NCBI RefSeq assembly: GCF_014651915.1
Contig: NZ_BMXU01000001.1
Span: 744,001-808,000 of the forward strand
Reading direction: 5' to 3'
Length of the DNA stretch: 64,000 nucleotides
Origin: Parvularcula lutaonensis
Lineage (GTDB): Bacteria; Pseudomonadota; Alphaproteobacteria; Caulobacterales; Parvularculaceae
Made by a program: the position numbers and the translations under genes. The notes beneath the pieces were generated by a model. That model saw nothing but the letters and a program-made list of their open reading frames with translations. It did not search any database and had not been told where the DNA came from. This document shows, in pieces, positions 9,368 to 33,407 of the stretch (its first letter is position 1; the number at the start of each line of letters is the position of its first letter).

Positions 9368-10510
9368 CTAACGAATGGTGTAGAGGCTGAGCACCGCTGT
9401 GCGGTCACGCATGCAGGTCCCGGAGAGGTTGGTGACATCGGCTTGCCACTTCGCCACCTGCTGCAACATGGCATCGCCGAACCGCTCGGAGGGCAACTCC
9501 GACAGGATGCGCAGCCCGGTCGTCCTGCCATCATCGTCGAGATGATAGCCGATCACCACGGCCCCGTTATAGCCGCTCATCCGATCGGGGAAGTCCAGCG
9601 GCTGCCGCTCCCAGGGAATTTCCATCTTGCAGGCCCCCTGCAGAACGGTGGGCGCCACCGGCATTCTCCGGTCCCTCCCCCGCGCATCTGGGTCGTAGGA
9701 GCCCTGATAAGCCGTGACCATGGTGTGCCACGCCATGGCCTGCGCCAGGAACGGATCGAACCGCTCAAGAGATTCCTGCGGCCCGATTTCCTTCTGGATC
9801 GCTGCAAAACGCTCGACGCTCGCATCCATCCTCTTGGCGTAGCGTCTCCCCTCTCGGCCCTCGTCCATCGTCGTTGCTCCGCGGTGGCCGTCGCGCGGTG
9901 GATCGGAGAGCACCGCAATAAAGCGCAGTGCTTCTGCTTCTATCTTTCTCTGTGCACTGACATCGGGCATCGAAGCGTAGTCGTCGCTCATGCCGCCAGC
10001 GACCGCCTCCAGCGAACCCCACTGGCGCTTCTCCTCGGAGAGGGAACGCAGGCGAATGCGGGCCTTGAGGATCGGCTCGGAGGTTCTCTCCTGTAGGGAG
10101 ATACGAGGGATGAGGTCCGCGGCCCGACCGATCGTGCGTCCCGAAGGCGACATCGCAGCCTCCGCTTCGGCCACAAGAAAACGGAGCGTGTCCGGACCAT
10201 AATTCTGCACGCCGAAACCCCGCTCGCTCAGGGCGAGCGCGTCCTTGAGCGCCGGAAGCGCTGCGCCCGGATCCGAAGTGCCGGCCATCAGGCCGGAATT
10301 TTGTGCCAGGAGAGCGCGGTTCTCGCCGGGTTCACGCTGCCTGCTCGCGGCAAGCCACGCAGCCTCTGCGTGCTGGATGGCAGCCGCCTCGTCACCGGCC
10401 GTCATCGCAGCGGCGAATGCCCGGTAGTGCTCGCGCCACGACGTCTCCCCCGCTTCGACAGGTGACATGCTGGCGAGAGTCAGGAACATCGCCGACAGGA
10501 TTGAACGCAT
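9368..10510 (-). CDS. Exported protein with C-terminal TonB-like domain (paralogue 3)
   Basis: 380 residues, the same length and layout as the protein at 5585-6727: signal peptide (MRSILSAMFLTLASMSPVEA), a helical middle with the shared WREHYRAFAAAM opening (compare WKESYRAYQAAM), and a TonB-like C-terminal domain (NGAVVIGYHLDDDGRTTGLR). A Cys near the end (GTCMRD) matches Cys in paralogues 1 (DACLRN) and 2 (EECRIN) and could pair with an upstream Cys (QGACKMEI). It follows the AlkA-like gene by 58 bases on the same strand. Function unknown; a role in energy transduction is not supported because no membrane anchor remains after signal cleavage. Confidence 0.85.
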   Translation of the reverse strand: MRSILSAMFLTLASMSPVEAGETSWREHYRAFAAAMTAGDEAAAIQHAEAAWLAASRQREPGENRALLAQNSGLMAGTSDPGAALPALKDALALSERGFGVQNYGPDTLRFLVAEAEAAMSPSGRTIGRAADLIPRISLQERTSEPILKARIRLRSLSEEKRQWGSLEAVAGGMSDDYASMPDVSAQRKIEAEALRFIAVLSDPPRDGHRGATTMDEGREGRRYAKRMDASVERFAAIQKEIGPQESLERFDPFLAQAMAWHTMVTAYQGSYDPDARGRDRRMPVAPTVLQGACKMEIPWERQPLDFPDRMSGYNGAVVIGYHLDDDGRTTGLRILSELPSERFGDAMLQQVAKWQADVTNLSGTCMRDRTAVLSLYTIR

Positions 10511-10569: not shown

Positions 10570-11211
10570 TCAGAGCGGCGCGCGGCCCCGGACATGAGCG
10601 ATCTGCCCCCAGAGGATGTGCGCCGCCACCCCGCGATGCGGGGCATAGAATTCCTCCGCCCACGCATCGAAGGCCTTGATGTCCTGCCGCCCGAAGGTAC
10701 CCCCGGCCATTAGGTGGGCGGCAAGAAGCGCAACATCGCCTCTCGGCCAGAGATCGCGGCGGCCCTCGCAAAAGAGGAGATAAACCGCCGCAGTCCAGCG
10801 TCCGACGCCGAGAAGTCCCTCAAGCGCTTCGGACGCCTGCCGGTCATCAAGGCGCTGAAGCTCAGCGAAATCAAAACGGCCCTCCGTCACGTCCGCCGCC
10901 AGAACCTTCAGGTAACGGATCTTTGGCCGCGACAGGCCGAGGCTGCGCAGGTTGTCTTCACTGGTACGCAGCACATGCTCCGGGTCGAGGCCTGCGGTGG
11001 CTGCCTGCACCCGCTCAAGGATGGCGTTCGCGCTTGCGACCGAGAGCTGCTGCTCGATGATGATGCGAGAGAGGCCCTGATAGCCGCCCTCGCGGGCACG
11101 CCAGCGCGGCGGGCCTGTCACGTCGAGGATGTTGGACAGGACACGGCATCGCGCCGCCAGCTCCCGGCAGGCTTCCGCCGTCCGGCGGTCACCGCCGCGC
11201 AAGCCCGTCAA
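10570..11211 (-). CDS. AlkA-like DNA-3-methyladenine glycosylase (HhH-GPD family)
   Basis: About 213 residues. The core HhH-GPD fold is visible: IIIEQQLSVASANAI early on, the hairpin LLGVGRWTAAVYLL, and PRGDVALLAAH carrying the catalytic Asp. There is no C-terminal Fe-S cluster, as in AlkA/MPG-type enzymes, which excise alkylated purines in base excision repair. I chose the TTG at 11211 because its TTGA overlaps the stop of the glutamate-cysteine ligase gene by three to four bases; a reading frame continues upstream to a possible start at 11277 but would overlap gshA by 70 bases. It probably belongs to the ssb-rsmE-gshA string. Confidence 0.85.
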   Translation of the reverse strand: MTGLRGGDRRTAEACRELAARCRVLSNILDVTGPPRWRAREGGYQGLSRIIIEQQLSVASANAILERVQAATAGLDPEHVLRTSEDNLRSLGLSRPKIRYLKVLAADVTEGRFDFAELQRLDDRQASEALEGLLGVGRWTAAVYLLFCEGRRDLWPRGDVALLAAHLMAGGTFGRQDIKAFDAWAEEFYAPHRGVAAHILWGQIAHVRGRAPL

Positions 11212-14011: not shown

Positions 14012-14026
14012 GTTCGCAGAATGTTC
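14012..14026. promoter_or_regulatory. LexA (SOS) box upstream of ssb
   Basis: GTTCGCAGAATGTTC is an exact match to GTTC-N7-GTTC, the LexA operator known from alphaproteobacteria. It lies 77 bases upstream of the ssb start and about 136 bases upstream of the divergent beta-barrel gene at 14162, so either or both could be controlled. Confidence 0.75.
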
Positions 14027-16241: not shown

Positions 16242-16256
16242 GTTCGTCCCTTGTTC
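16242..16256. promoter_or_regulatory. LexA (SOS) box upstream of uvrA
   Basis: GTTCGTCCCTTGTTC is an exact GTTC-N7-GTTC match, 58 bases upstream of the uvrA ATG, in the gap between OMP 3 and uvrA. uvrA is a classical LexA target. Confidence 0.8.
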
Positions 16257-32608: not shown

Positions 32609-32647
32609 GAACACTGCAAGAACATTCTTGATGTTCTTTTTCTGTTC
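32609..32647. promoter_or_regulatory. Two mirror-image LexA (SOS) boxes
   Basis: GAACACTGCAAGAAC at 32609-32623 is GAAC-N7-GAAC, the box read on the minus strand; GTTCTTTTTCTGTTC at 32633-32647 is GTTC-N7-GTTC. They are nine bases apart and point away from each other, giving GAAC-N7-GAAC-N9-GTTC-N7-GTTC. The second ends 16 bases before the ATG of the EndoIII-like gene, so bound LexA would cover its promoter. Confidence 0.75.
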
Positions 32648-32663
32648 CCTTAGTCTCCGCACC

Positions 32664-33407
32664 ATGCAAGCGCCACTGACCTTCGCCGTCGACAACCGCC
32701 TTCCGGAGATCCTCGAACGGGTGCTCCAGCTTCTGCCCAAGCAGCGCCCGGTCGCGGACACCAATCCGCTGGACCAGTTGCTCTACGGCGTCGTGGCCCA
32801 GGGGCTTTCGTCCGCTGGTGCCACGGCCTGCTTCCGACGGGTGAAAGAGCGTTTCCCCAGCTTCGTGTCCCTGCGCGATGCCGAACCCGAGACTCTCCGC
32901 AGCCTGATGGTGGGGGTGCCGTCCGCGGCACTCAAGGCCGCCGCGATCCCGGACATCCTCCGGCTGATCGAGGAGGCTTTCGGCAGTCTTTCCCTCGAGC
33001 CGCTGTCCCGGCTCGACCAGGAGCTGGCCTTGCGCTTTCTCACCCGCCTGCCTCGGGTGACCGAAGAGATCGCCGTGTCGGTGCTCCGTTTCACGGGCAC
33101 CGACCGGCTGGTCCTTCACATAGACAGGGATGTCGCGCGGCCCCTCCGCCGCCTCGGCCTCGCCGAGCCCGGCGCGCCGCTCTCCGCCCTGCCGCGTCAG
33201 TTGATCGAGCGCTCACCGGTCGCGTGGCGCTCAGAGGATTTCGCAGCCCTCAGCCGCGGTCTCACCCGCGTTGCTGATCGCTTCTGCCACCAGGGTCGGC
33301 CCGATTGCTCGAGCTGCCCGCTGGCGAGCCTCTGTCCGGCTGCGGAGAAAACCGAAGGGAAAGTCGTCACCTTCCCCTTTGGCAAGCGAAAGGCCAGCCT
33401 CGCCTAG
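32664..33407 (+). CDS. Endonuclease III-like Fe-S HhH-GPD protein with altered active site
   Basis: 247 residues from the ATG at 32664. The Fe-S motif is complete: Cys-x6-Cys-x2-Cys-x5-Cys within FCHQGRPDCSSCPLASLC (about residues 206-223). The helix-hairpin-helix that reads LPGVGRKTA in EndoIII is LPRVTEEIA here, losing both Gly and the catalytic Lys. The general acid/base Asp seems kept (HIDRDVAR in place of VDTHxxR). Loss of Lys suggests no beta-lyase activity; it may be a monofunctional glycosylase like MutY, or a DNA-binding protein. No ribosome-binding site is evident. A double LexA box precedes it, and its stop shares CTAG with the convergent gene. Confidence 0.85.
   Translation: MQAPLTFAVDNRLPEILERVLQLLPKQRPVADTNPLDQLLYGVVAQGLSSAGATACFRRVKERFPSFVSLRDAEPETLRSLMVGVPSAALKAAAIPDILRLIEEAFGSLSLEPLSRLDQELALRFLTRLPRVTEEIAVSVLRFTGTDRLVLHIDRDVARPLRRLGLAEPGAPLSALPRQLIERSPVAWRSEDFAALSRGLTRVADRFCHQGRPDCSSCPLASLCPAAEKTEGKVVTFPFGKRKASLA

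Follow-up and report, generated by a model that had tools for sequence, protein, structure and literature searches.

The window, that is, the whole 64,000-nucleotide stretch of the Parvularcula lutaonensis genome analysed here (positions 744,001 to 808,000 of contig NZ_BMXU01000001.1), contains a gene for a 247-aa Fe-S protein of the endonuclease III (EndoIII) fold on the plus strand at 32664..33407, just downstream of two LexA-type boxes. Both boxes are exact matches to GTTC-N7-GTTC, the LexA site published for Caulobacter (PMC12700426, PMC9578287), and they are mirrored with nine bases between them (32624-32632), as the preliminary description had read them. The proximal box, GTTCTTTTTCTGTTC, lies on the plus strand at 32633..32647. 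The distal box, at 32609..32623, is GTTCTTGCAGTGTTC on the minus strand and reads GAACACTGCAAGAAC on the plus strand. A TTG start at 32628, inside the operator, was ruled out by alignment, and the ATG at 32664 was used because MQ stands at residues 1-2 in all but one of the 52 aligned relatives; in the exception, L095, a GTG start gives VQ.

In the translated protein, the helix-hairpin-helix sequence LPGVGRKTA of Nth is replaced by a degenerate LPRVTEEIA (residues 129-137; 33048..33074), with Glu135 at the position of the lyase residue Lys120, and alignment confirmed this replacement, which had been noticed earlier. The equivalent of Nth Asp138 is present (Asp154; codon at 33123..33125), as are four Cys residues (208, 215, 218 and 224; 33285..33335) that are invariant in the alignments and presumably form a [4Fe-4S] loop, so that the four-Cys motif and the active-site Asp are kept as originally described. 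Residues 2-7, QAPLTF (32667..32684), constitute a candidate beta-clamp-binding hexapeptide, as judged from the alignment and the published consensus. All of these features are on the plus strand.

The double operator and the LexA regulon

A putative promoter, read by eye from the upstream regions, would span 32628..32656 on the plus strand, with a -35-like TTGATG (32628-32633) and a -10-like TAGTCT (32651-32656) separated by a 17-nt spacer, and most of the proximal box falls inside this spacer. A strict promoter scan found no promoter at the window gene; relative L017 carries a closer match, TTGCAA-17-TATAAT. In the window gene and several relatives of the same clade (clade A, see below), the -10-like element ends approximately 6-7 nt upstream of the ATG; the mRNA would then be leaderless, and the transcript of the window gene may start at or beside the ATG. 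In the clade A genes L016, L080, L081 and L085 the leader is longer, and GGTGA precedes the ATG.

The 64-kb window holds six single exact boxes against 1.88 expected, and the genome holds 113, compared with 74 matches to the reversed pattern, so a lone box carries little weight. Two boxes in mirrored orientation, with a gap of 4-14 nt allowed, are found at a single place in the 2.95-Mb genome, and the reversed control of this pair at zero places. Chance as the origin of the boxes was ruled out by this genome-wide uniqueness and by conservation. At another location, L117 (G000:C1:883123-883156), two exact boxes lie in tandem, in the same orientation and 4 nt apart, ahead of a gene that may encode a radical-SAM protein by hand reading.

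The regulon was checked in 20 regions picked by eye from the 113 box places, with genes named by reading their translations and not from a database, except for lexA, which is a Pfam match. The lexA gene of this genome has a box 26 nt before its start. Boxes also precede uvrA (box at 16242) and ssb (box at 14012), both within the window, as well as uvrD, a parE-like gene, a comM-like gene, two GIY-YIG genes and a glyoxalase-like gene. Four of the 20 regions (L118, L121, L126 and L128) have no ATG-started ORF of at least 60 aa within 120 nt, and many of the boxes in the genome are therefore probably due to chance. No exact box near recA was found in the genome-wide list of 113 places. The window operator is very likely part of a LexA regulon, and box conservation, together with the boxes at lexA and other SOS-type genes, strongly supports SOS control of the window gene.

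Relatives of the window protein and their operators

The window protein scores below the Pfam cut-offs for HhH-GPD (14 of 26.2 bits) and EndIII_4Fe-2S (14.8 of 20.5 bits). An NCBIfam search with E up to 10 returned three matches, no nth model among them, and both the DR2438-type monofunctional DNA glycosylase (36.1 of 400 bits) and MutY (25.6 of 286.5 bits) are below cut-off. The best PDB sequence match is EndoIII-3 of Deinococcus radiodurans (E 5.5e-7), and the best matches in a fold search were D. radiodurans EndoIII-1, followed by EndoIII-3. TM-scores of the predicted structure against EndoIII-1, EndoIII-3 and E. coli EndoIII are 0.61-0.71, by target. The structure was modelled from 52 alignment rows (mean pLDDT 88.4, pTM 0.64), an earlier 14-row model with a pTM of 0.50 having been set aside. 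Assignment to the EndoIII fold thus rests on the PDB sequence matches, the fold search with the predicted structure, and the relatives, which agrees with the HhH-GPD-type protein first proposed for this gene, though the Pfam scores are below cut-off. A PADLOC search gave no match to the window protein at E up to 1, and the reading as a defence gene was set aside. The same genome encodes a separate canonical Nth (L001). A second HhH-GPD match in the window lies on the minus strand at 10726-11064 and is AlkA-like by hand reading (LLGVGRWTA); the exact box nearest to it, at 10319, is on its downstream side.

A profile of 14 relatives, run on a sample of 398 genomes of the order, found matches in 45 genomes, and these fell into two score groups: clade A, which includes the window protein (19 matches, 331-384 bits), and group B (31 matches, 119-180 bits). 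A further sample of 385 genomes covered the class. A search of 62 genomes of the family found clade A in 19, including all 10 from the genus to which the window belongs, and 4 of the 62 have group B alone. The named matches comprise Parvularcula mediterranea (87% identity), P. maris, P. dongshanensis, P. oceani, two Aquisalinus and three metagenome assemblies. Four of the 19 clade A genomes (G007, G022, G124 and G171) also encode a copy that keeps the Lys.

In a tree of 60 rows, clade A lies on one side of a branch with support of 100/100 and has a long stem (1.19). A node with support of 91/84 joins clade A, group B and six class-level rows, and the tree leaves the exact sister of clade A unsettled. 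Six class-level sequences (L139, L140, L141, L143, L144 and L145) are outside alignment A2, and L141 and L145 are also outside the tree. On this evidence, clade A is placed inside a larger set of Nth-like proteins of alphaproteobacteria, most of them SOS-boxed; it was filed as a derived subfamily because the Asp is present and the Lys absent. In that set, the boxed relative L145 (G642) is in two pieces in different frames, which indicates a broken gene or a sequencing error. In G044 (L103), two SOS-Nth-like paralogues are adjacent, with 2 nt from the stop codon of the first to the start of the second (L103b, from 2189); both keep the Lys and the Asp, and only the first has a box of its own.

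Among eight named loci, a trmFO-like gene precedes the EndoIII-like gene in five (L061, L062, L063, L066 and L067), and a convergent gene resembling phytoene/squalene synthase follows it in five (L060, L061, L062, L066 and L067), as in the window. L068 has different neighbours, and a longest-frame filter hid parts of the neighbourhood at L063 and L064. Phage origin was ruled out, as none of 43 pattern-matching viral-contig stretches encodes a relative and the chromosomal neighbourhood is common to several relatives.

Of the 19 clade A genes, 18 carry an exact proximal box that starts 27-49 nt upstream of the ATG; in L015 this box has a single mismatch. In group B it is exact in 30 of 31 genes, the exception being L103b. 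Five of the 10 class-level matches have an exact box; for L139, L140, L141, L143 and L144, whose starts are uncertain, no exact box was found in the stretch searched. The mirrored distal box (up to one mismatch) is present in 9 of the 19 clade A genes, five of them exact, against 0.7% expected from single-base shuffling of 30-nt stretches. Outside clade A it was found in none of 35 testable genes, a set that does not include L103b. In L095, an exact box lies 29 nt upstream of the GTG start, and the mirrored position has three mismatches. All nine double-box genes carry, by eye, a -35-like TTG(A/C) between the boxes (TTGA in seven, TTGC in two), and the proximal box in these genes would fill the spacer up to the -10-like element. 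Whether Lys loss and the double box co-occur had been posed as a check, and they do so at clade level only. The second box was found only in the Lys-less clade, but 10 of the 19 Lys-less members are without it at up to one mismatch, and the double operator is therefore not tied to Lys loss gene by gene. The refuting pattern named beforehand, nearest relatives with an intact Lys and no conserved box, did not appear: the other 18 clade members are all Lys-less, and 17 have an exact box, L015 being the one with a mismatch.

Residue loss and constraint in clade A

The lyase Lys is lost in all 19 clade A proteins and kept in all 31 of group B. The catalytic Asp is lost in seven of the 19 (N in three, G in two, E in one and S in one), against none of the 31. 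On the tree, the Lys position changes once, with class-level rows excluded, and the Asp at least four times. The second hairpin Gly is lost in 18 of the 19 and the first in five, and the four Fe-S Cys residues are complete in all 19. Within clade A, 219 of 247 positions are less variable than the Lys position, and this variability, together with the Asp losses, fits a relaxed need for catalysis. HhH-GPD glycosylases use the catalytic Asp. SOS control together with loss of lyase chemistry is the safest statement. Loss of glycosylase chemistry is probable for clade A, with less certainty in the case of the window protein because Asp154 is kept there. L142 (G457), one of four class-level sequences in alignment A2, has Glu for the Lys, keeps the Asp and the box, and lies on a long branch; it may represent a second, independent Lys loss.

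The clade A genes are under purifying selection. The reading frame is free of stops in all 19, and dN/dS is 0.04-0.28 in five pairs, values that are rough, with dS up to 1.5; they show constraint on the clade A protein as a whole. A pseudogene was ruled out by these ratios, the lack of stops and the conservation. Residues invariant in the clade and variable elsewhere include F7, P14, R162, S174, R178 and F237, and the mean isoelectric point of clade A is 9.3, compared with 9.0 for the other sequences.

The start of the protein is also conserved. Most relatives begin with MQxxLx(F/L), similar to the beta-clamp-binding hexapeptide; the pattern MQxx[LFM]x[LFIVM] is present in all 19 clade A proteins and in 25 of the 33 others, and an exact QLSLx[LF] in 18 of the 31 group B sequences. 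The hexapeptide QL[SP]LPL occurs near the N-terminus of Hda and of Caulobacter HdaA (PMC3836487), and HdaA is reported there to bind DnaN through QFKLPL. QAPLTF of the window protein differs from QL[SP]LPL at three of six positions, and the structure prediction for this N-terminal stretch is of low confidence (block mean pLDDT 65). The candidate peptide of the window protein lies near the N-terminus, like that of Hda and HdaA, but Hda and HdaA are AAA+ proteins of another fold and the window peptide is the looser match. We take the resemblance as a lead and not as membership of the clamp-binding class; the window protein might be tethered to the clamp.

Possible function of the clade A proteins

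Canonical Nth and the window protein have the same fold and the four-Cys loop, and the latter is without the Lys120 equivalent and the hairpin Gly. The SOS-boxed Nth-like paralogues of groups B and C mostly have the same box and an MQ-type start, and they share the Fe-S Cys residues and the common tree; group B keeps the Lys and the Asp, whereas clade A is Lys-less, and the mirrored box was found in none of the 35 genes tested outside clade A. CC2272 and ccna_02355 of Caulobacter are taken here to be the same gene. Under the latter name it is described as an early SOS gene with the box GTTCttgttatGTTC (PMC12700426), and a table in PMC1839093 gives CC2272 as the second C. crescentus nth. The box of L102 is identical to the 15-mer printed for ccna_02355, and the Lys-keeping, SOS-boxed group B probably includes this gene. 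SOS-controlled Nth-like proteins were thus probably already known, and the novelty once attributed to an SOS-controlled EndoIII-like protein in itself does not hold, since Lys-keeping SOS-boxed relatives exist. What appears to be new is the Lys-less clade, the repeated loss of the Asp, the mirrored operator limited to the clade, and the clamp-like peptide common with relatives. A literature search with partial coverage of journals yielded no account of the Lys-less clade that we recognised. EndoIII-3 of D. radiodurans is described as a paralogue that is without detectable EndoIII activity and binds damaged DNA (PMC9268735); it keeps both the Lys and the Asp, whereas the window protein keeps the Asp alone.

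Our main reading, to which we assign a probability of roughly 0.55, is that the gene encodes an SOS-controlled protein that is lyase-less and probably glycosylase-less and that would bind DNA and perhaps the sliding clamp. In undamaged cells, LexA would sit on the proximal box, which separates the -35 element from the -10 element; it would probably cover the mirrored box beyond the -35 element as well. The gene would thereby stay tightly shut until DNA damage led to expression. The product would be a derived paralogue of the SOS-boxed Nth-like proteins in which the two-lobed EndoIII fold and the Fe-S Cys residues were kept, the second hairpin Gly and the lyase Lys were lost, and the clade overall could do without the catalytic Asp. 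The product would then act as a non-excising factor that binds abasic sites or damaged DNA. The N-terminal clamp-binding-like peptide would keep it close to the fork, where it would shield the lesion or steer polymerase or repair traffic. DNA binding may be weak, given the hairpin Gly losses. Other points against this reading are the three mismatches of QAPLTF, the Lys and Asp kept by the precedent, D. radiodurans EndoIII-3, the lack of an exact box near recA and the negative strict promoter scan. The fuller form of this proposal, an SOS-induced, clamp-tethered pseudo-glycosylase that reads lesions or abasic sites, is tentative and less likely than not. In this form, shielding or polymerase steering at damaged forks would have taken the place of base excision, and the mirrored double LexA operator would have evolved along with the protein. 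The preliminary description had envisaged an SOS-induced factor with changed chemistry or with DNA binding only; its SOS control is strongly supported by the conserved boxes, whereas a complete lack of base-excision chemistry now seems more likely than changed chemistry, given that seven of the 19 clade members have lost the Asp too.

The rival that survives best, though somewhat unlikely, is a monofunctional glycosylase of the MutY/AlkA type, in which the Asp alone would remove the damaged base and leave the abasic site to other enzymes. The Asp is present in 12 of the 19 members, the best NCBIfam match is such an enzyme, though at 36.1 of 400 bits, and MutY chains are among the weak PDB matches; since the window protein keeps Asp154, this activity is conceivable in the window species. 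In seven of the 19 members, however, the Asp has become G, N, S or E by at least four changes while the genes are still boxed, and the second hairpin Gly is gone in 18. More doubtful is a protein-only scaffold that has lost DNA binding as well and whose Fe-S fold docks on DnaN or another repair protein. The degenerate hairpin would agree with such a scaffold, as would the clade-invariant residues listed above (F7 to F237), but the mean isoelectric point is as high as in the other sequences and all Fe-S Cys residues are kept.

It is very improbable that the gene is a redundant SOS Nth copy in the course of being lost: the catalytic residues are lost and 4 of the 19 genomes have a Lys-keeping copy, but dN/dS is low, all 19 genes are stop-free, the gene is kept in every genome of the genus and the operator is conserved. 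An ordinary bifunctional enzyme using another nucleophile is equally improbable, as Lys91, invariant in all 52 relatives, is likely structural because the same Lys-Ala occurs, by hand reading, in the canonical Nth of this genome beside the catalytic Lys, and loss of the lyase Lys is accompanied by decay of the hairpin and the Asp.

The clade appears to be a natural example, spread over 19 genomes, of a DNA glycosylase that parted with its chemistry and kept its Fe-S Cys residues and its SOS box. The protein, probably damage-induced and conserved in this marine bacterium and related species, resembles a repair enzyme without a residue required for cutting, and it may act by holding DNA or the replication machinery instead of repairing bases. 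The N-terminal clamp-like peptide, mostly common with the Lys-keeping relatives, offers a specific and cheap test. The clade allows non-cutting roles of Fe-S repair proteins to be tested, and it bears on why alphaproteobacteria place an Nth-like protein under LexA.
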